NCBI GenBank assembly: GCA_030526265.1
Contig: JAUNDE010000018.1
Location: forward strand, 1-35,810
Source of the DNA: Eubacteriales bacterium
GTDB taxonomy: Bacteria; Bacillota; Clostridia; Lachnospirales; Lachnospiraceae
Direction: 5' to 3'
Length of the DNA stretch: 35,810 bases
How positions within the stretch are numbered: position 1 is the first letter of the stretch; the number at the start of each line of letters is the position of its first letter. Below the pieces are notes generated by a model. The model ran no database searches. It saw nothing but the letters and a program-made list of their open reading frames with translations, and was not told where the DNA came from. The position numbers and the translations under genes are program-made. Below are positions 3,648 through 23,239 of the stretch, in pieces.

Positions 3648-4013
3648 ATGTGCGAGAACATTAGAACAGATATTAAAGTACGATTGCTTTCCGATAAGAA
3701 ATTTTTCGGGCCGGGTATCTGTGAGCTGCTGGAAGAAATTGGAAAATGTGGATCGATTCAGGCTGCCTGTAAGGAGATGGGGTTATCTTATTCAAAGGGA
3801 AGTCACATTCTGAAAAATCTTGAAAAAGGTCTGGGGATTCCGATGGTTCAGAGGTGGACAGGGGGTTCCGGTGGCGGCGGAGCGGAACTGACCGAAGAAG
3901 CAAGACAAATGATCCGGAGTTATCGGTCGATGGTTCGTGATATTGAAAGCTATGCAAAAGAGGCTTATCGTAAATATTTTTCTGATATTCTGGGAGAATG
4001 TGCGGGAAAATAA
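3648..4013 (+). CDS. ModE-like winged-helix transcriptional regulator
   Basis: This 121-residue protein is a stand-alone ModE N-terminal type DNA-binding domain: residues ~24-85 include a CGSIQAACKEMGLSYSKGSH helix-turn-helix, a LysR-like KNLEKGLGIPMVQR recognition/wing region and the glycine-rich GGSGGGGAELTEE wing typical of ModE (family knowledge). The C-terminal molybdate-binding (Mop/TOBE) domains of E. coli ModE are absent, as in many short clostridial homologues. The ATG at 3648 has a GAAAGGAAG site just upstream; an earlier in-frame start is less likely. The gene lies directly before a wrecked modA-like gene, so its original job was probably regulating molybdate/tungstate uptake. It appears intact. 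Confidence 0.85.
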   Translation: MCENIRTDIKVRLLSDKKFFGPGICELLEEIGKCGSIQAACKEMGLSYSKGSHILKNLEKGLGIPMVQRWTGGSGGGGAELTEEARQMIRSYRSMVRDIESYAKEAYRKYFSDILGECAGK

Positions 4014-4058
4014 GGAAATGTAAGAGATAGTTTTTGAAAAAAACAGGAGAAAAAGATA

Positions 4059-4419
4059 ATGAAAAAAAGAGTACTTGCATTATTAATGAGTGGTGTGATG
4101 GTATTTGGGATTGCAGCATGATCGAATTAAGAAAACAGTGATGGAACAGAGTCAAAGGAGACAGCAGAAGAAACATATGGACGAGCTGGAAGGACTGGAG
4201 CTTATTTTGTCTGATACAAGAGCGAATGTCGTGAATAACCAGGTATGTGTTGTTACATATGCAGGAAGTGAGACGAAGGTTACAGGCCTCTCAGATATCG
4301 GAAATGCAGAAGCAGATGACCTCGAAAAGGAGGCTGCATTTGATTTCCTTACATTCCTTACTTCAGATACGGCAAAAGAAATCTATGAGAAATATTATTT
4401 TGACATAAATGTAGAATAG
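4059..4419 (+). pseudogene. modA: Collapsed molybdate ABC transporter substrate-binding lipoprotein
   Basis: An ATG at 4059, preceded by AGGAG, encodes a lipoprotein signal, MKKRVLALLMSGVMVFGIAA, then TGA exactly where the lipobox cysteine (TGC) is expected, followed by a second in-frame stop. After a frame change the sequence resumes as DELEGLELILSDTRANVVNN, a stretch matching the first half of ModA-type proteins, then jumps from LSDIGNAEADD to EKEAAFDFLTFLTSDTAKEI, which is the typical C terminus of these proteins. About 250 residues are expected but only the ends remain, so at least two internal deletions plus point stops occurred. No modB or modC permease/ATPase genes follow; asnS comes next. 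ModA identity rests on family pattern recognition. Confidence 0.75.
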
Positions 4420-4495
4420 GACGGAAGGATTATTGACACCTATACAGATTATTGATACCGGAAGAAAAGATTCTGTTTATGAAATAAAAAATGTG

Positions 4496-4504
4496 TGCTA
4501 TAAT
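4496..4504 (+). promoter_or_regulatory. Extended -10 promoter for asnS
   Basis: TGCTATAAT is a perfect extended -10 (TGnTATAAT) 62 bases before the asnS start. The -35 is weak (TTTATG at 4476-4481 with a 17-bp spacer). No T-box-like sequence lies between it and asnS. Confidence 0.6.
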
Positions 4505-4565
4505 AACGGGATAGACAGCTTAGGACACAAACAGAGCGTTACATTATCAGAAGGAGCAGGGACAG

Positions 4566-5957
4566 ATGAAGTTAATTACGATCAGAGATTTGTACAAGAA
4601 CCGGGAAGAATACCTGGATAAGAAGATAACCATCGGCGGATGGGTAAGAAGCATCAGAGATTCGAAAACATTTGGGTTTATTGTGGTAAATGACGGAACA
4701 TATTTCCAGCCACTGCAGGTTGTGTATCATGACAAAATGGAGAATTTCGCAGAAGTTTCCAAATTAAATGTCGGTGCAGCCCTTATCGTAACCGGAACGC
4801 TTGTGGCAACTCCAAACGCGAAGCAGCCATTTGAGATTCAGGCAGATGAGGTTACTGTAGAAGGAAATTCAGCACCGGAGTATCCGCTTCAGAAAAAGAG
4901 ACACAGCTTCGAGTACCTCAGAACGATCTCCCATCTTCGTCCTAGAACAAATACGTTCCAGGCAGTATTCCGTGTGAGATCACTCACGGCATATGCGATC
5001 CACAGATTCTTCCAGGAGAGAGGATTTGTATATGTGCATACACCATTGATCACAGGAAGTGACTGTGAGGGAGCAGGTGAGATGTTCCGCGTTACAACAC
5101 TTGATATGGCGAATGTTCCAAAGACAGATGCCGGAGAAGTCGATTATACACAGGATTTCTTTGGGAAGGAGACAAGCCTTACCGTAAGTGGACAGCTGAA
5201 TGCAGAGGCTTATGCACAGGCATTCCGCAACATCTATACATTTGGACCAACATTCCGAGCAGAGAATTCCAACACAACACGTCATGCGGCTGAGTTCTGG
5301 ATGATCGAGCCGGAGATCGCATTTGCCGATCTGGAAGACGATATGGAACTTGCGGAAGATATGTTGAAATATGTGATCAGCTACGTGATGGAGAACGCAC
5401 CGGAAGAGATGAATTTCTTTAATTCCTTCGTAGACAAGGGACTGATCGCAAGACTGCAGAATGTTGTTTCCTCAGAGTTTGCAAGAGTGACTTATACGGA
5501 AGCAATCGAACTTCTTGAGAAAAATAACGATAAATTCGAGTACAAGGTATCATGGGGAACCGATCTTCAGACAGAGCATGAGCGTTATCTGACAGAAGAG
5601 ATCTTCAAGAGACCGGTATTCGTTACAGATTATCCGAAGGATATCAAAGCCTTCTATATGAAACTGAATGAGGATAACAGGACTGTGGCAGCAGTAGACT
5701 GTCTTGTGCCGGGAATTGGAGAGATCATCGGAGGAAGTCAGAGAGAGGACGATTACGATAAGCTGAAAGCCCGTATGGATGAGCTCGGAATGAAGACAGA
5801 GGAGTACGAGTTCTACATGGATCTTCGCAAATATGGTTCTACACGTCATGCGGGATTTGGTCTTGGCTTTGAGCGCTGTATCATGTATCTGACAGGTATG
5901 AGCAATATCAGAGACGTTGTTCCGTTCCCACGTACGGTAAATAACTGTGACCTTTAA
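4566..5957 (+). CDS. asnS: Asparaginyl-tRNA synthetase
   Basis: The 463-residue protein is a class IIb aminoacyl-tRNA synthetase that charges tRNA-Asn with asparagine in the cytosol. An OB-fold anticodon-binding domain occupies about residues 17-105 ([20 protein letters not shown]). Class II motif 2 is seen in [20 protein letters not shown], and motif 3 in [15 protein letters not shown] near residue 430, with its ATP-binding arginine. The length fits bacterial AsnRS. The ATG at 4566 has AGGAG at 4552-4556. It heads a plus-strand series with the two-component genes, which follow after only 41 bp with no terminator. Confidence 0.97.
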
Positions 5958-5998
5958 TCTTTGGCAGACGTATCTGAAAATGTGCAGGGAGGGATTCT

Positions 5999-6688
5999 AT
6001 GAACATTTTAGTTGTTGATGACGAGAAAGAAATTGCTGACGTTATTGAACTGTATCTTCAGAATGATCAGTATTCTGTGTTTAAGTTTTATACAGGTCAT
6101 GATGCATTAAAGGCGATAGGTGAGATGAAGATCGATCTTGCAATACTGGATGTCATGCTTCCGGATATTGACGGATTTCAGATACTGAAGAAAATCAGGG
6201 AGAAATACACATTCCCGGTCATTATGCTGACGGCGAAAACAGAGTATATGGACAAGATCACAGGTCTTACACTCGGTGCGGATGACTATATTCCAAAGCC
6301 GTTTAATCCGCTTGAGTTGATTGCCAGAGTAAAAGCACAGCTTCGCCGTTATACGCAGTATAATGACGGCGGAAAAGAAACAGGCGATGTCATTGATTTC
6401 GGGGGATTGTTTTTGAATCGTACTTCACACGAGTGTGTGTATAACGAAGTTCCTCTTACATTGACACCGATCGAATTTTCAATCTTATGGCTCCTTTGTG
6501 AGAACCGGGGAAAAGTTATCAGTTCGGAAGAACTGTTTGAAAAAGTCTGGAATGAAAAGTATTACAAGAACAGTAACAATACCGTTATGGTGCACATCCG
6601 GCATTTAAGAGAAAAGCTTTCAGCACCAACAGGAAATTCTGATTTCATCAAGACAGTATGGGGAGTTGGATATAAGGTTGAAGAATAA
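5999..6688 (+). CDS. OmpR/VanR-type response regulator
   Basis: This 229-residue regulator has an N-terminal receiver domain (VVDDEK acidic pocket, phospho-acceptor Asp51 in ILDVMLPDIDG, MLTAK and the KPF lysine) and a C-terminal OmpR-type winged helix (LTLTPIEFSILWLLCENRGK through TVWGVGYKVEE). It binds DNA as a phosphorylated dimer to control transcription. Its 3' end overlaps the start of the histidine kinase gene, so the pair is translationally coupled. Sequence style is closest to VanR-like regulators of clostridia, but no vancomycin-resistance genes lie nearby, so that resemblance says nothing about resistance. Targets are unknown; the downstream nuclease/ATPase genes are candidates by position. 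Confidence 0.93.
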   Translation: MNILVVDDEKEIADVIELYLQNDQYSVFKFYTGHDALKAIGEMKIDLAILDVMLPDIDGFQILKKIREKYTFPVIMLTAKTEYMDKITGLTLGADDYIPKPFNPLELIARVKAQLRRYTQYNDGGKETGDVIDFGGLFLNRTSHECVYNEVPLTLTPIEFSILWLLCENRGKVISSEELFEKVWNEKYYKNSNNTVMVHIRHLREKLSAPTGNSDFIKTVWGVGYKVEE

Positions 6689-7904
6689 TTATACCAAATT
6701 AAAATTAAGCATTTTATTGCAGACAATGCTGATCGCAGCATTGACTGTACTCGTTGGCGGCTTTCTTCTGAATTATGTAGTCGAAGGAATCTACAAAGAT
6801 TCCTTCGGCGATACATTTGTAAGGTTTATGGAATTGTTTCATATGGAAGAACAGACCGCCATTGATTTATATTGGGGACTGATCGGCAATAATAAAGTCT
6901 TTTTCAGTATTGTCGGTTTCATGCTTTTGTTTGCGCTGTTTTTCTACATTGCGCTTTCGAATCTTACGAAATATCTGGATCAGGTAGGGGACGGTATCGA
7001 GAATATTCTTTCGGAATCAACAGAGCCGATCCATCTGATTACAGAGCTGAAACCAATCGAGATCCGTCTGAATGAGATCAAGGCAACGATCCGCAGACAG
7101 GAGCTGGAGGCGATCGAGAGTGAAAAGAACAAAAATGATCTCGTTATTTTTCTGGCTCACGATTTAAAGACGCCGCTTACATCGATCGTTGCTTATCTTA
7201 CAATGCTTGACAGCCACCCGGAGATGTCTGTGGAGGAGAGGGCAAAGTATACACATATTTCACTTGAGAAAGCGATCCGTCTCGGACAGCTGATCAACGA
7301 GTTCTTTGATATTACGAAGTTCAATCTTCAGCAGATCGAACTGGAACCGGTGGAAGTGAATCTGTCGATGATGCTGGAGCAGATCGCAGATGAGCTTTAC
7401 GGTGTACTTCAGGAGAAACATTTATCGTGCGAAGTTGAGACAATCGATAATCTTATGATCGAGGGAGACCCGGATAAGCTCGCCCGTGTATTTGACAATA
7501 TCCTTCGAAACGCGATCGCGTATTGCTACAAAGATTCTACGATCCGGATCGATGCACATATCAAATGGGATGATGTCGAGATCGTATTTGAGAATCAGGG
7601 ACCGAGAATCCCGGGTGCGAAGCTTCAGACAATATTCGAGAAGTTCTATCGTCTCGATGATTCCAGATCGAGTCAGACCGGAGGAGCAGGACTGGGGCTT
7701 GCGATCGCAAAAGAGATCGTTGAACTGCACGGAGGAAGGATCATTGCAAAGAGTGATGACGAGAAGACTCGTTTTGTTGTGACACTGCCGATGAAAAAAG
7801 AAGTTGAGGAGAGTGCGGAAAATGAAGTTCATACACGCAGCAGACGTGCATTTAGGAGCGGAACCGGACGTCGGAAAAAACCAAAGAAAAACCCGCGCAA
7901 GTGA
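6678..7904 (+). CDS. VanS-like sensor histidine kinase
   Basis: A membrane sensor kinase: TM1 at about residues 10-35 (LSILLQTMLIAALTVLVGGF), a short external loop of about 45 residues, TM2 (FFSIVGFMLLFALFFYIAL), then a HisKA helix with the phospho-accepting histidine about residue 161 (FLAHDLKTPLTS), N box (DNILRNAIAY), and G boxes (IFEKFYRLDDS, GAGLGLAIAKEIV). It autophosphorylates and passes phosphate to the preceding regulator. The start is a TTG, at 6678 (MKNNYTKLKL) or 6666; both overlap the regulator's 3' end. The last ~27 residues are highly basic (RRKKPKKNPRK) and are encoded within the first 83 bp of the next gene in another reading frame. Confidence 0.92.
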   Translation: MKNNYTKLKLSILLQTMLIAALTVLVGGFLLNYVVEGIYKDSFGDTFVRFMELFHMEEQTAIDLYWGLIGNNKVFFSIVGFMLLFALFFYIALSNLTKYLDQVGDGIENILSESTEPIHLITELKPIEIRLNEIKATIRRQELEAIESEKNKNDLVIFLAHDLKTPLTSIVAYLTMLDSHPEMSVEERAKYTHISLEKAIRLGQLINEFFDITKFNLQQIELEPVEVNLSMMLEQIADELYGVLQEKHLSCEVETIDNLMIEGDPDKLARVFDNILRNAIAYCYKDSTIRIDAHIKWDDVEIVFENQGPRIPGAKLQTIFEKFYRLDDSRSSQTGGAGLGLAIAKEIVELHGGRIIAKSDDEKTRFVVTLPMKKEVEESAENEVHTRSRRAFRSGTGRRKKPKKNPRK

Positions 7905-8883
7905 GATTTGGCGTACCTTTGAAAATTTGATTACAGTATGTGAAGAAGAAAAGATAGATCTCCTGTTTATTGCAGGAGATTTATTTCATAGGCAGCCTTT
8001 GCTCAGGGAGCTTAAGGAAGTGGATCATCTGTTTGGTACACTGTCGAAGACCAGGGTTGTATTGATCGCAGGCAATCATGATTATATAAAATCAAATTCC
8101 TACTATCGCACGTTTGAATGGAGTCCGAATGTGACGATGCTTGACAGTGACAGCGTGGAGTATGTGGAATTTGAGCATCTTGACACAGCAGTCTACGGAC
8201 TCAGCTATCACGAGAGAGAAAATACAGAGCCGGTCTATGAGAAGATTCGGATTCATGATTCATGCAGACATCACATTCTGCTTGCTCATGGTGGTGACGA
8301 GAAGCATTTTCCGTTTCGGAAAGCGGTAATGCAGCAGATGGGCTTTGATTATATTGCACTTGGCCATATTCACAAGCCGGGAGCGCTCATTCCGGACTAT
8401 ATGATCTATTCCGGAGCGCTGGAGCCGATCGACAAGAATGACATTGGGAAGCATGGATATGTGAAAGGTGAGCTGACAAACGAAGGATGCCGGACGACAT
8501 TTGTTCCGTTCGCGAAGAGGGAATATATTCATCTGGAACTGGAGATCGAGGAGCATATGACAGGCTTCGAAGTCCGAAAGAAGATCCAGAGCGAGATTGA
8601 AGCAAATGGCACACAGAATATCTACAGGGTAGTTTTGGAAGGATTCAAAGAGCCTGAGATCGTATTTGATTTTGGCGGTGTGGATGTATACGGGAACATC
8701 ACAGAGATCGAAGACAATACGAAGCCCGCATATGATTTCTATCATCTGCTTCAGAAGAATCGGGGGAATCTCCTTGGTAAATATATTGAGAGCTTTGGAG
8801 ATGCTTCACCGGATACGATCGAGTACGATGCGCTCTGTGAAGGTGTACAGGCACTGATGGAGACATCGGGAAGCAGGACTTAA
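7822..8883 (+). CDS. SbcD/YhaO-like metallophosphoesterase (DNA nuclease)
   Basis: This 353-residue protein carries the five phosphoesterase motifs of Mre11/SbcD nucleases: DVHLG (D8, H10), AGDLFH, AGNHDY, LAHGG and GHIHKP, followed by a C-terminal cap region. Such enzymes bind two metal ions (usually Mn2+) and, with an SbcC/Rad50-like ATPase, trim DNA ends and hairpins. The ATG at 7822 (GAGGAGAG upstream) lies inside the kinase gene. It is followed after 25 bp by an SbcC/YhaN-like ATPase gene, its likely partner. The pairing most resembles the Bacillus yhaO-yhaN pair. Function in DNA repair is family inference. Confidence 0.88.
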   Translation: MKFIHAADVHLGAEPDVGKNQRKTRASEIWRTFENLITVCEEEKIDLLFIAGDLFHRQPLLRELKEVDHLFGTLSKTRVVLIAGNHDYIKSNSYYRTFEWSPNVTMLDSDSVEYVEFEHLDTAVYGLSYHERENTEPVYEKIRIHDSCRHHILLAHGGDEKHFPFRKAVMQQMGFDYIALGHIHKPGALIPDYMIYSGALEPIDKNDIGKHGYVKGELTNEGCRTTFVPFAKREYIHLELEIEEHMTGFEVRKKIQSEIEANGTQNIYRVVLEGFKEPEIVFDFGGVDVYGNITEIEDNTKPAYDFYHLLQKNRGNLLGKYIESFGDASPDTIEYDALCEGVQALMETSGSRT

Positions 8884-8908
8884 ACGTGCGTCGTATAATG
8901 GAGGATTT

Positions 8909-10513
8909 ATGAAATTACTGGAATTAAATCTGAAAAACTTTGGAAAATTTCATAATAAGAAACTTGCATTTGGTGACGGGATCCAGCTGATATATGGTGA
9001 AAATGAGTCCGGGAAGTCAACGATCCATACATTTATCAGATCGATGCTGTTCGGTATGGAGCGGGGGCGCGGAAGGGCAGCAGGAAGTGACGAGTTCTCG
9101 AAGTACGAGCCGTGGGAGAATGGGAATTATTATTCCGGTGAGATGAAGATAGAATGTGAAGAGAAAGTTTTTTGTTTACAAAGAAATTTTGATAAGTATT
9201 CTAAGAGTGCGTCGCTGATCTGTGAGACGGACGGAGAGGTGCTTTCTGTTCATCATCAGATGACGAGAGGATCAAAAGGCAGGCAGGATCAGGAGAGTGA
9301 TGATCTGGGAATCCTCCTTGATGGACTGACAGCTGCCTCCTATGAGAATACATTGTGTATCGGGCAGCTTCTTGCCGGCACGAACCAGGAACTGTCCGAT
9401 GAGCTGAAGAATTATGCGATGAACTACTATGTGACCGGTGACAGTGATATCGACTTTACTTCGGCTAAGGAAAGTCTTCTTCAAAAGAAGAAAAAACTGG
9501 AGAAAGAGTCAAAAGGGCTGCTTGAGGAGAAGCAGAAGAAACGTGAGGAGATCGCACACGAATCGTCTTATATCTGGAGAGATATGATGCATATGGATGC
9601 GGAAATCGATTCACTCAAAAAGGAATATCAGCGCATGGAAGAGAAAGAGAGCGATCAGGATCATGCATGGCAGGAAGTGCGAAAGCAGCGCGTGACAGAT
9701 ATGATTCGGCCGAAAAAGTGGAGGATCCATCCGATCGAGATCATCGCCATTATACTGATAGATATCCTGTCATTTTATTTTCTGCCGAATCCGTGGAAAG
9801 CATATGTGACGGTACCGATTGTGATCGCTGGAATAATCTATATATGGAACCGGATGAAGGTGAGTAAAGCAGAGGCGGGAAAGAGCGCCGGGAAAGAGGA
9901 TGGCTCTGATGAAGAGGAATCATCGAGAGAGCAGATTTACTGGGAGTATGAAAAGCTTCTGAAGATGAGGATGGAGAAACAGATTGAGTACGATAACCTT
10001 CAGGAGAAAATCCGGGAGCTGGATGAGATGAATCCGGATTATCTGGAAACGGAGAGAAAAGTGCAGGCGGTTGCACTTGCCCTGAATCGTCTGGAAGAAG
10101 TCTCAAAGAGCATGCAGACGCAGCTGGCAGCAAAGCTGAATCAGAGAGTCTCAGAGATCGTTTCTGTCATCACAGATGGAAAGTATGACAGACTGACCGT
10201 TGATGAAACGCTTCAGATGCATATTTACCATGAGGGAAGGATGATCTCGCTGAATCAGGTAAGCAGAGGAACGCTGGAGCAGATCTATTTTGCGCTTCGG
10301 ATTACTGCAGCAGAGATTTTATATCAGGAAGAGTATCCGATCATACTGGATGATACATTCGCATTTTATGATGAGGACAGACTTCGCAATACACTCCGCT
10401 GGCTGTCAGACAGCGGCAAGCAGGTGCTGCTTTTTACGTGCCACAAAAGAGAAGCGCAGATCATGAATGAGATGGGAATCCCGTATGACAGGATTTCTCT
10501 ATCGAATGATTGA
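8909..10513 (+). CDS. Short SbcC/YhaN-like AAA ATPase with central membrane hairpin
   Basis: An SMC/Rad50-type ATPase of 534 residues: Walker A GENESGKST at residues 30-38, a coiled-coil arm (about 190-260), two hydrophobic segments at about 276-292 (IEIIAIILIDILSFYFL) and 299-316 (VTVPIVIAGIIYIW), a second coiled coil (about 340-425), the ABC signature-like NQVSRGTLEQIYFALRI near 448, and Walker B YPIILDDTFAFYDED near 480. Typical SbcC and YhaN are about twice as long. The paired membrane segments at the tip of the arm would tether the ATPase to the membrane, as in some YhaN relatives. It is the predicted partner of the preceding nuclease. Its stop codon TGA overlaps the -35 of the thiamine operon. 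Confidence 0.85.
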   Translation: MKLLELNLKNFGKFHNKKLAFGDGIQLIYGENESGKSTIHTFIRSMLFGMERGRGRAAGSDEFSKYEPWENGNYYSGEMKIECEEKVFCLQRNFDKYSKSASLICETDGEVLSVHHQMTRGSKGRQDQESDDLGILLDGLTAASYENTLCIGQLLAGTNQELSDELKNYAMNYYVTGDSDIDFTSAKESLLQKKKKLEKESKGLLEEKQKKREEIAHESSYIWRDMMHMDAEIDSLKKEYQRMEEKESDQDHAWQEVRKQRVTDMIRPKKWRIHPIEIIAIILIDILSFYFLPNPWKAYVTVPIVIAGIIYIWNRMKVSKAEAGKSAGKEDGSDEEESSREQIYWEYEKLLKMRMEKQIEYDNLQEKIRELDEMNPDYLETERKVQAVALALNRLEEVSKSMQTQLAAKLNQRVSEIVSVITDGKYDRLTVDETLQMHIYHEGRMISLNQVSRGTLEQIYFALRITAAEILYQEEYPIILDDTFAFYDEDRLRNTLRWLSDSGKQVLLFTCHKREAQIMNEMGIPYDRISLSND

Positions 10514-10538
10514 CAAATGTGAAAACGAGGAATAAGAT
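10510..10538 (+). promoter_or_regulatory. Thiamine operon promoter
   Basis: TTGACA (10510-10515), a 17-bp spacer and TAAGAT (10533-10538) form a good SigA promoter. The -35 contains the stop codon of the preceding ATPase gene, and the transcript would begin right at the riboswitch. Confidence 0.75.
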
Positions 10539-10544
10539 AATAAA

Positions 10545-10640
10545 AGCAGGGGAGCTTGTTATGGCAGGCTGAGAGGAAGGAAGCACCTTCGACCCTATAA
10601 CCTGATGCGGATAATGCCGCCGTAGGAAGTCATAAGCAGG
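10545..10640 (+). ncRNA. TPP riboswitch (THI element)
   Basis: The conserved blocks of the thiamine pyrophosphate aptamer appear in order: GGGGAGC, GGCTGAGAGG, ACCTTCGACCC, AACCTGAT, GCGGATAATGCCGC and CGTAGGAAG. It senses thiamine pyrophosphate and lowers thi expression when the vitamin is plentiful. A terminator directly downstream indicates control by premature termination. Confidence 0.95.
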
Positions 10641-10648
10641 GATTTTTT

Positions 10649-20400: not shown

Positions 20401-21360
20401 CTAAACAACGAGGTTGCGTTCGCGACCTTCCAGGAATGCTTTGATATTTTCATAGTTTTCTGTTACAACACGAGTTCTTGCTTCTGTGCTTGCCCATGCC
20501 ATATGTGGGGTGATGAAGAGCTTTGAACTGTCTTTGATCTTACTCAGAGGATTTGTCTCACGAAGTGGTTCGTGTTCAAGAACGTCAAGCCCGGCAGCTG
20601 CAATCTCATCATTGATCAATGCCTCGTATAAATCAGCATTGTTTACGACAGGTCCTCTGGCGACGTTGATAAGGATGGCGCTCTTCTTCATTTTCTTCAG
20701 TGCGGCTGCGTCGATCAGATCACGTGTGAGATTTGAGAGAGGGCAGTGAACAGAAAGGATATCTGCCTGTGCAAGAAGCGTGTCAAAGTCAACGCGTGGA
20801 TAATCTGTGCAGGTGCTTTTGCCGGAAGCAGAGTAGAAGATGACCTTACAGCCGAAGGCTGCAGCGATTCTTGCCACCATGCGCCCGATTCCGCCCATGC
20901 CGATGATACCCCATGTTTTACCTGCAAGCTCGAAGAATGAGCGGTCAAAGTTTGAAAAACGTTTCTGCGCAGAGTATTCACCTGATTTTACATAGCTGTC
21001 ATAGTGTGGAAGGTTTTCTAAAAGATAAAGAGCGAGTGCAAATGTGTGCTGCGCAACGGCTTCTGTGCAGTAATTGCGTACATTTGCAACGCGGATTCCG
21101 CGGCTTTTGCAGTATTCGATGTCGACGTTGTCAAAGCCTGTAGCAAATTCACAGATCAGTTTGACGTTTTTCGCTTCTCTAAGGGTCTCTTCGTTCATTG
21201 GGAGTTTGTTGTTGATGATGATGTCGGCATCTTTGACTCTTTCTTTTCCATCGGTGGTATTATCTGTATTTGAGTAACTCGTTACATCACCGAATTCTTC
21301 AAAACAGGAAATATCTATATCGGTTCCGACACTGTCGCGTTCTGTTATTACAATTTTCAT
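20401..21360 (-). CDS. NAD-dependent D-2-hydroxyacid dehydrogenase
   Basis: This 319-residue enzyme has the D-isomer 2-hydroxyacid dehydrogenase layout: a catalytic domain in two parts around a Rossmann domain with GMGGIGRMVA (about residues 155-164). Catalytic residues are the arginine in NVARGPVVN, the glutamate in LEHEPL and the histidine in ITPHMAW. Substrates may be hydroxypyruvate, glyoxylate or another 2-keto acid; the group most resembles glycerate dehydrogenase/hydroxypyruvate reductase. The ATG at 21360 follows GGAGG. It heads an operon with the pseudouridine synthase. Confidence 0.93.
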   Translation of the reverse strand: MKIVITERDSVGTDIDISCFEEFGDVTSYSNTDNTTDGKERVKDADIIINNKLPMNEETLREAKNVKLICEFATGFDNVDIEYCKSRGIRVANVRNYCTEAVAQHTFALALYLLENLPHYDSYVKSGEYSAQKRFSNFDRSFFELAGKTWGIIGMGGIGRMVARIAAAFGCKVIFYSASGKSTCTDYPRVDFDTLLAQADILSVHCPLSNLTRDLIDAAALKKMKKSAILINVARGPVVNNADLYEALINDEIAAAGLDVLEHEPLRETNPLSKIKDSSKLFITPHMAWASTEARTRVVTENYENIKAFLEGRERNLVV

Positions 21361-21519: not shown

Positions 21520-21760
21520 GGTGAAATAGCGATGAAGAGGAATAGTAGTCGGTCGAACATATTACAGAGAAGAATCGTATGCTGAGAGATTTTGTATGAG
21601 AACCCGATAAACCTGCCTTGGAGCTTCCGTGTGAAAAGCATGGCGCATGCATCGGCGTTAACGATGGAATGAGAGAACTGCCCGGAGGCAGTTAATTAGG
21701 GTGGTACCGCCGAGCTTTCGGTCCCTTGTGGATGGAAAGACCGGGGGTTCTTTTTTATTT
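21520..21760 (+). ncRNA. T-box leader controlling proS
   Basis: The 14-nt T-box core AGGGTGGTACCGC lies at 21698-21710, preceded by stem I features (GAAGAGGAATAGTAG, CTGAGAG, CCTTGGAG) and followed by a terminator stem (CGGTC...GACCG with T run, 21716-21756). The UGGU in the core fits the ACCA end of tRNA-Pro. Uncharged tRNA-Pro should favour read-through. The specifier codon is probably a proline codon near 21603-21614 (CCG or CCT); I could not fix which. The whole 436-bp gap before proS is promoter plus this leader. Confidence 0.9.
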
Positions 21761-21796
21761 TCATTGTAAATATTAGGAAAGAAAGAGGAGAGAGAC

Positions 21797-23239
21797 ATGG
21801 CAAAGCAGCAGAAAATGGTAAAAAACATCACTTCCCGTGATGAAGATTTCGCTCAGTGGTACACAGACGTTGTACGCGAAGCAGAATTATGTGATTATTC
21901 GAGCGTAAAAGGATGCCTTAACTACCTTCCAAACGGATATGCGATCTGGGAGAGAATCCAGGCAGACCTTGACAGACGTTTTAAAGAGACAGGCGTAGAG
22001 AACGTATATCTTCCAATGCTGATCCCGGAATCACTTCTTGAGAAAGAAGCGGATCATATCGAAGGATTTGCACCGGAAGTTGCGTGGGTTACACATGGTG
22101 GTATGGAGAGACTTCAGGAGAGACTCTGCATTCGTCCTACATCAGAGACACTTTTCTGTGATATCTGGGCTAGAACTGTAAAATCACACAGAGATCTTCC
22201 AAAAGTATGGAACCAGTGGAATTCCGTTCTTCGCTGGGAAAAGACAACAAGACCATTCCTTCGCTCAAGAGAATTCCTGTGGCAGGAAGGTCATACAATC
22301 CATGCGACATATGAGGAAGCAGAAGCAAGAACGATCCAGATGTTCCATGTATATGAAGACTGTTACAAGGAGACAATGGCAATTCCATACGTATCAGGAA
22401 GAAAGGCAGAGCACGAGAAATTTGCAGGAGCGCAGGATACTTATACAGTAGAGGCTCTCATGCATGACGGAAAAGCGCTTCAGTCTGCGACAAGCCACTT
22501 CTTCGGAAGCGGATTCCCGGATGCATTCGGAATTAAATATGTAGATAAGAACAATGAACTTCAAAGCGTATACGAGACATCCTGGGGATGGTCTACAAGA
22601 AGTATCGGAGCACTTATTATGGTTCACGGTGATGATGACGGTCTTGTACTTCCGCCACATGTTGCTCCGATTGAGTGCCGTATCATTCCGATCGCGCAGC
22701 ATAAGGAAGGTGTCCTTGACAAGGCAGATGAACTTCTCGCTGCACTTAAGAAAGCCGGATACAGAGTGAACATTGATGATTCTGAGAAGAGTCCGGGATG
22801 GAAATTCGCAGAGCAGGAGAAGCTCGGTATTCCTACACGTATCGAGATCGGACCAAAGGATCTTGAGAACAATCAGGTTGTTGTTGTTCGCCGTGATACC
22901 CGTGAGAAGATCATTGTTTCAATGGATGAGATCGCAGTAAAACTTCGTGACATTCTTGAGACGATCCAGTCTGATATGTATGACAGAGCAAAAGAATTCC
23001 TTGACAGTCATATCTTCGAGGCGACAAATCTTGATGAGATGAAAGAGCAGTTCACAAAGAACCGTGGATTTGTAAAAGCATGCTGGTGCGGAGATCCTGC
23101 GTGTGAAGGTGAAGTGAAATATGTGACAGGCGGAGCAGCGACAAGATGTCTGATTGAAGATGAAGAATTTATCTCAGACAAATGTATTTACTGTGGAAAG
23201 CCTGCAAAACACATGGCATACTGGGGCAAATCTTACTAA
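21797..23239 (+). CDS. proS: Prolyl-tRNA synthetase (archaeal/eukaryote-like type)
   Basis: The 480-residue protein charges tRNA-Pro with proline. It lacks the editing insertion domain of long bacterial ProRS and has the type-3 (archaeal/eukaryotic-like) arrangement: catalytic class II core with RPTSETLFCDIW and RWEKTTRPFLRSREFLWQEG, an anticodon-binding domain, and a C-terminal zinc-binding region with CWCGDPACEG and CIYCGKPAKH ending in the conserved Tyr. The ATG follows a GAGGAG site. Control by the T-box leader fits its role. A terminator follows. Confidence 0.96.
   Translation: MAKQQKMVKNITSRDEDFAQWYTDVVREAELCDYSSVKGCLNYLPNGYAIWERIQADLDRRFKETGVENVYLPMLIPESLLEKEADHIEGFAPEVAWVTHGGMERLQERLCIRPTSETLFCDIWARTVKSHRDLPKVWNQWNSVLRWEKTTRPFLRSREFLWQEGHTIHATYEEAEARTIQMFHVYEDCYKETMAIPYVSGRKAEHEKFAGAQDTYTVEALMHDGKALQSATSHFFGSGFPDAFGIKYVDKNNELQSVYETSWGWSTRSIGALIMVHGDDDGLVLPPHVAPIECRIIPIAQHKEGVLDKADELLAALKKAGYRVNIDDSEKSPGWKFAEQEKLGIPTRIEIGPKDLENNQVVVVRRDTREKIIVSMDEIAVKLRDILETIQSDMYDRAKEFLDSHIFEATNLDEMKEQFTKNRGFVKACWCGDPACEGEVKYVTGGAATRCLIEDEEFISDKCIYCGKPAKHMAYWGKSY

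Follow-up and report, generated by a model that had tools for sequence, protein, structure and literature searches.

We analysed a nuclease-ATPase gene pair of the Mre11-Rad50 superfamily that lies in 35,810 nucleotides (nt) of DNA from a gut bacterium of the Lachnospiraceae. This whole stretch, called the window here, is a single contig (C92, 35.8 kb); the draft genome to which it belongs amounts to 2.2 Mb and is divided into 107 contigs. An earlier sequence-only reading had described four genes running in one direction, for a response regulator (RR), a sensor histidine kinase (HK), an SbcD-like nuclease and an SbcC-like ATPase. All four were confirmed in their coordinates, domains and shared + strand, with asnS ahead of them and thi genes, behind a thiamine pyrophosphate (TPP) riboswitch, after them. 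The features of the locus are listed below.

4566..5957, + strand: asnS, asparagine--tRNA ligase (NCBIfam NF003037, 2.5e-209)
5999..6688, + strand: OmpR-type RR, VanR-like (Pfam Response_reg and Trans_reg_C; NF033117, 381 bits, cut-off 350)
6666..7904, + strand: sensor HK, VanS-like (Pfam HisKA and HATPase_c; NF033091, 363.6 bits, cut-off 400)
7822..7904, + strand: overlap of the HK 3' end with the nuclease 5' end, 83 nt (HK tail out of frame over the nuclease start)
7822..8883, + strand: SbcF/YhaO-type nuclease (Mre11/SbcD superfamily), 353 aa (ATG at 7822; Pfam Metallophos, 3.5e-15)
8909..10513, + strand: short-armed SbcE/YhaN-type ATPase (Rad50/SbcC-like), 534 aa (Pfam AAA_23/AAA_15/AAA_27)
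8996..9022, + strand: Walker A of the ATPase, residues 30-38 (G30, N32, E33, G35, K36 and T38 invariant in 44 sequences)
9731..9850, + strand: predicted transmembrane hairpin of the ATPase, residues ~275-314, mid-arm (hydropathy; recurrence in homologues)
10262..10282, + strand: ABC signature S-x-G-T-x-x-Q of the ATPase, residues 452-458 (S452 and G454 in 44/44 sequences, T455 in 42/44)
10337..10354, + strand: Walker B PIILDD of the ATPase, residues 477-482 (D481 invariant; second acid D in 28/44, E in 16/44)
10538..10645, + strand: TPP riboswitch (Rfam RF00059, 64.1 bits, cut-off 54.3)

The RR and HK genes overlap by 23 nt, assuming that HK begins at its first possible codon, and a gap of 25 nt separates the nuclease gene from the ATPase gene. 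From 10721 onward follow thiS, thiF, thiG, a radical-SAM gene (thiH-like) and a thiE-like gene; because the TPP riboswitch stands ahead of them, we take these genes to be a separately controlled unit and the riboswitch to mark the border of the nuclease-ATPase unit.

Family assignment of the nuclease and the ATPase

Relatives were collected from named genomes, in which the best 80 of 511 related loci, with flanks of up to 10 kb, gave 81 rows together with the window. The set of 75 short homologues used for the ATPase comparisons omits L061, L082, L085, L086 and L107, the starts of which could not be placed automatically; all five show central hydrophobic peaks of the kind described below. Some protein starts in the 81-row scan were misplaced by the crude motif used, which leaves the central segment unaffected. 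Further, 19 long YhaN-type relatives were drawn from the stronger matches of a phylum-wide search and are not a random sample, and 25 canonical SbcC proteins were taken from the best matches in 60 genomes. An open reading frame (ORF) matching a crude Mre11 motif was identified in 15 of the 19 long-relative regions.

By sequence comparison, the nuclease and the ATPase are a pair of the YhaO/YhaN (SbcF/SbcE) type, nearer to that family than to SbcCD, as the YhaON-like label given earlier had proposed. An alignment of the ATPase with 43 of the 75 short homologues (44 sequences) matched 14 long YhaN-type ATPases by hhalign at E 1.3e-74, against 2.4e-8 for 8 canonical SbcC, and the single sequence gave BLASTP values of 5e-16 to the YhaN type and 6e-4 to the canonical SbcC of its own genome. 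The separate canonical SbcCD of that genome is encoded on contig C10 (G000:C10) and shares superfamily, head architecture and nuclease fold with the window pair, whereas its SbcC, with a frame of 901 aa, carries a CPVC hook and lacks the central hydrophobic peak. The nuclease likewise matched the YhaO-type protein of locus L161 at 1e-22 versus 8e-9 for the canonical SbcD of its own genome, and it scored 59 bits with the SbcD model TIGR00619, under the cut-off of 77.65 bits that the SbcD on C10 passes (159.9 bits). The closest solved relatives by sequence were archaeal for both proteins, namely Rad50 3qku for the ATPase (2.8e-22, profile search) and Mre11 3auz for the nuclease (4e-10); archaeal Mre11-Rad50, unlike the window pair, has long arms with a zinc hook.

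The pair resembles SbcEF of Bacillus subtilis (YhaN/YhaO, yhaONM operon) in the order of its genes, an Mre11-type nuclease followed by a Rad50-like ATPase. It differs in the length of the ATPase, which is 534 aa, where the open frames of two YhaN-type relatives (L160 and L161) measure 938 and 975 aa. The earlier estimate of about half the usual length stands: the frames of the 19 long relatives span 795-1592 aa, some lengthened by non-coding upstream sequence, and the short homologues, which are Lachnospiraceae-type, measure 478-652 aa (n=75). The long arms of an ATPase of ~900-1000 aa are therefore absent, and the window protein is a short-armed variant. In L161 the YhaN-type gene is followed by a gene with HD and OB domains, as expected of a yhaONM operon, and L160 also has a YhaM-like gene; we read the HD and OB gene as YhaM-like on what we take to be the domain make-up of yhaM. 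No YhaM-like gene stands beside the window pair, where the thi genes follow instead and where asnS and, in one lineage, a two-component system lie alongside.

Eight Mre11-type residues were identified in the nuclease (D8, H10, D53, N85, H86, H156, H182 and H184), to which we assign catalytic roles that are presumably those of Mre11/SbcD. Nuclease frames were found in 77 of the 80 loci, 55 of them passed a start motif, and 35 of these were aligned with the window; all eight residues were retained in 34 of the resulting 36 rows, and 33 of the 36 were unchanged when H56 was added as a ninth scored position. In two nucleases on one branch, L071:8958-10001 and L090:8958-10001, residues of the metal-ligand type are replaced (D53 by N; N85/H86 by D/C or S/C); these two look inactive from these replacements, yet are still paired with an ATPase of the short-armed kind.

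A central hydrophobic segment in the ATPase

Two hydrophobic stretches were identified in the ATPase of the window, at residues ~275-293 and ~298-314, the first of them strong (mean hydropathy 2.0 over 19 residues). An equally hydrophobic pair appeared in 1 of 300 shuffles of the same protein, and a central hydrophobic segment was present in all 81 rows (the window and 80 named loci). Because the trait recurs in this way, the segment is not a product of chance. Every one of the 75 short homologues had the central peak, with a mean of the two best windows of at least 1.81 in each, and the peak lay near the middle of the chain in 19 of 19 long YhaN-type relatives. Two separate central peaks of at least 1.4 were found in 77 of the 81 short rows and in 18 of the 19 long ones, L160 being the long row without them. 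In contrast, a central peak of 1.4 was seen in 0 of the 25 canonical SbcC, 24 of which had a central CxxC. That motif was central in 2 of the 75 short homologues and in none of the 19 long relatives, and the window's ATPase has no CxxC zinc hook. The likeness to SbcEF in having a central hydrophobic segment and no hook was measured in L160 and L161 as stand-ins for the B. subtilis protein.

Among the 75 short homologues, the 15 residues on each side of the hairpin held on average 3.8 basic residues before it and 4.5 after it. The loop, of median length 9 residues, held a mean of 0.85 basic residues over its whole length and had none in 30 of the 75. Since basic residues cluster on the flanks and are scarce in the loop, both arms are expected to lie in the cytosol. 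Membrane anchoring of the ATPase is, as a prediction, well supported, and a membrane hairpin seems to replace the zinc hook in YhaN-type ATPases, here on short arms. The hydrophobic helices that the sequence-only reading had noticed in the arm were borne out as predicted topology, given their recurrence in short and long homologues alike. The helices did not prove special to the two-component-linked module, as that reading had implied; they are rather a trait of all the YhaN-type relatives examined.

We take transmembrane segments to be annotated for B. subtilis YhaN in databases. No description of a membrane hairpin in SbcE was found in the accessible portions of the YhaN/SbcE literature, a weak negative given that most subscription journals lay outside the search. 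YhaN of Staphylococcus haemolyticus is entered with the location membrane in a surface-shaving protein table, according to the accessible part of PMC7137321.

Gene neighbourhood and control

Upstream DNA was visible in 75 of the 81 rows, the other 6 reaching a contig end. In 47 of these 75, asnS lay directly upstream of the nuclease gene; RR and HK stood between the two in 11, window included, and something else did in 17. These counts agree with the earlier remark that a sensor kinase gene does not usually accompany pairs of the YhaON type. In a tree built from 76 ATPases, all 11 rows with RR and HK fell within one set of 13 (SH-aLRT 96), the other two of which had no visible upstream DNA, and the trait amounted to one change on the tree among rows with a known state.

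We also surveyed the kinase across the family, with a single genome for each genus (150 genomes). Matches of at least 61% identity were identified in 12 genera (own genus included), and in 12 of 12 the kinase gene lay directly before the nuclease and ATPase genes, with at least 0.44 kb between these two in G004. Among species of the same genus, the four-gene order was present in 9 of 10. The tenth, G151, gave weak AAA_27 matches only, and neither gene is present in the stretch fetched from that genome. The locus and genus collections share some genomes (L044 and G106, for example, appear to be one), so that their counts are not independent. The four-gene order is, on these observations, firmly a true unit in the lineage that carries RR and HK.

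Of the next five kinases, at 49-55% identity, four lie beside asnS, and the 7-8 kb fetched around each of these contained no match to the nuclease or to the ATPase; the fifth adjoins neither asnS nor the nuclease pair. An ATPase match lies on another contig in G119, G129, G020 and, weakly, G146, and G104 is not among the matches listed. The kinase may be an old neighbour of asnS, and RR and HK may have been gained by one lineage or lost by others. The four-gene order described earlier holds, then, within its lineage; it does not extend to most relatives, in which asnS directly precedes the nuclease gene, nor to four of the next five kinases. In L216, L217, L218 and L219, asnS is followed by a VanRS-like pair, with no nuclease and ATPase.

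The RR scored above the curated cut-off of the VanR-ABDEGLN model, and the best match of the HK was the VanS model, in both of which they resemble VanR/VanS; unlike VanS proper, the HK stays below the cut-off of its model. A Pfam scan of 27 window proteins, which did not take in small ORFs, found no D-Ala-D-Lac/D-Ser ligase-type gene.

The HK stop codon lies inside the nuclease gene, 83 nt in for the window, 65-122 nt in ten relatives and 0-158 nt in 20 others, one of which abuts exactly (0 nt). Nuclease starts for these counts were placed by motif, and some genomes are present in both sets. The HK tail looks conserved because it is read out of frame from the conserved start of the nuclease, and the overlap suggests translational coupling. 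In the window, 41 nt separate asnS from RR; several members have gaps of 16-41 nt, and elsewhere the distance reaches 154 nt. No motif common to all aligned gaps was seen beyond ribosome-binding-like sequence, and because the gap is short and shares no motif, a dedicated RR-controlled promoter in it is not evident. A single transcript from asnS onward appears likely from this layout. A GC-rich inverted repeat of the type GGGACGGGG...CCCCGTCCC was observed in the asnS-RR gap of several genera (L038, L041, L079, L089, L206, L207 and L210), and L041 has a second copy; the repeat resembles an intergenic hairpin element that is spreading.

A promoter scan of the window returned 20 sites versus 19.4 expected, and a consensus terminator scan returned 9 versus a mean of 6.9 in shuffled DNA; the shared direction of the four genes stands, and the earlier statement that they run without terminators carries little weight. 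No T-box was detected before asnS in 3900-6100 at E up to 1. For the LexA-type box we took the pattern to be GAACN4GTTC, of which the window holds 0 exact copies and 10 with one mismatch (14.07 expected); SOS control was rejected on the absence of such a box. The window pair differs in this from yhaO and yhaN of Bacillus pumilus, which the accessible text of PMC3896406 lists under lexA/SOS.

One alternative to simple operon neighbourhood is a regulated module, in which the VanRS-like system would sense an envelope signal and set the expression of a membrane-bound nuclease pair. The four-gene order persists in the 12 genera and nine same-genus species despite ATPases in the other genera that are only 37-49% identical to the window's, in each of the 30 loci of this type measured besides the window (some genomes repeated) the HK gene overlaps or adjoins the nuclease gene, and the RR-HK state is a single change on the ATPase tree. 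Against such control, four of the next five kinases keep asnS with no nuclease or ATPase match nearby, the asnS-RR gaps are as short as 16-41 nt in several members and show no shared motif, and asnS rather than the kinase directly precedes the pair in most rows. Control of the nuclease by the kinase, and by a surface signal, is possible but unproven, and we consider the regulated module unlikely.

Proposed complex and alternative readings

We propose, with a probability of about 0.65, that the locus encodes a membrane-anchored, short-armed SbcEF (YhaON-type) complex of the Mre11-Rad50 superfamily, with RR and HK as operon neighbours. The nuclease and the ATPase would form the complex, in which two ATPase heads bearing two nuclease subunits would dimerise in an ATP-driven manner. 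The arms would be short, roughly 75-110 residues each from the window numbering, with a tip consisting of a two-helix hairpin in the cytoplasmic membrane and both arms in the cytosol, and an estimate from helix rise would place the heads at most ~10-15 nm from the membrane. The complex would therefore act on DNA within that distance, candidate substrates being the ends of DNA molecules, DNA with nicks or branches at the periphery of the cell, and incoming DNA. In one lineage of the Lachnospiraceae, RR and HK would have entered the space between asnS and the pair, or have been kept there, and coupling of nuclease translation to the kinase is probable in that lineage.

The paper that named SbcE reportedly has competence in its title. 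The accessible text of PMC4205851 describes B. subtilis SbcE as SMC-like and as taking part in the repair of double-strand breaks, and PMC6452273, as far as its text is accessible, implicates SbcEF in the same process and calls its role poorly characterised. Taken with this literature, the surface-shaving record of YhaN and the hairpin, the best-supported reading of what the complex may do is that of a membrane-anchored DNA-end processor working beside soluble SbcCD.

Several points weigh against the proposal. The second stretch of the window is only weakly hydrophobic (1.39 across 19 residues and 1.71 across 17), and four of the 81 short rows lack a second peak of 1.4, namely L044, L063, L081 and, by a narrow margin, the window itself. 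Membrane insertion is argued solely from hydropathy and charge bias. The SbcEF genes were dispensable for viability in a B. subtilis screen with nicking Cas9, according to the accessible part of PMC12748557, and our literature search turned up no assay of DNA processing by a short-armed member. Further, catalysis cannot be essential in every member, because L071 and L090 have lost metal-ligand-type residues.

The weak second helix of the window would also fit a different use of the hairpin, as a hydrophobic tip for dimerisation that is soluble, takes the place of the zinc hook and anchors nothing in the membrane; the hairpin occupies the mid-chain position held by the CxxC hook in canonical SbcC, which points the same way. 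The two best windows nevertheless average at least 1.81 in 75 of 75 rows, and basic flanks around a short loop poor in basic residues are typical of a membrane hairpin. The staphylococcal YhaN is also tabulated as a membrane protein, in the part of PMC7137321 available. A soluble tip is, on this evidence, quite improbable.

An anti-phage defence module of Rad50-like ATPase and nuclease is very improbable: the ATPase matches 42 PADLOC models (best AriA at 2.8e-16 over residues 1-471 and PbeC at 2.4e-15, then GajA and LmuB) and the nuclease matches PDC-S10 at 6.1e-9, but the GajA, PtuA and LmuB matches are confined to the first part of the ATPase head, the AriA match spans both head halves yet reflects the general ATPase fold, and the pair sits in a conserved place (after asnS in 47/75 rows, behind RR and HK in 11/75) and not in variable islands. 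PARIS/AriA or another PADLOC system was rejected as a candidate: no partner match was found, the nuclease matching only PDC-S10, PDC-S60 and an endonuclease model, weakly, in a scan that left out the other neighbours.

Mre11-Rad50 complexes are regarded as soluble machines joined via the zinc hook. If the membrane-anchored SbcEF reading is true, bacterial cells possess, in addition to soluble SbcCD, a membrane-bound complex dedicated to the processing of DNA ends, the short-armed form would be a compact, testable model of the swap from hook to hairpin, and 'hook or hairpin' would give genome annotation a simple sorting rule for the two families. A broader version holds that all SbcEF complexes are membrane-embedded with a hairpin for the hook, that the Lachnospiraceae form acts on membrane DNA only, and that one lineage has come under an envelope-sensing VanRS-like system; the arms would have been shortened until the nuclease reaches only DNA at the membrane, incoming or extruded. 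We offer this version tentatively, as a speculative possibility.

Elsewhere in the window, the SpoIIE-like ORF at 27677-29080 matches the SpoIIE_N model from model position 352, and its frame lacks the N-terminal part, possibly because of a frameshift or because that part forms an ORF of its own. On the opposite strand, a lone gene of the 2-hydroxyacid dehydrogenase type was identified (20401-21360), and a T-box leader (21523-21797; RF00230, 119.8 bits over 21523-21729) lies immediately 5' of a prolyl-tRNA synthetase gene.

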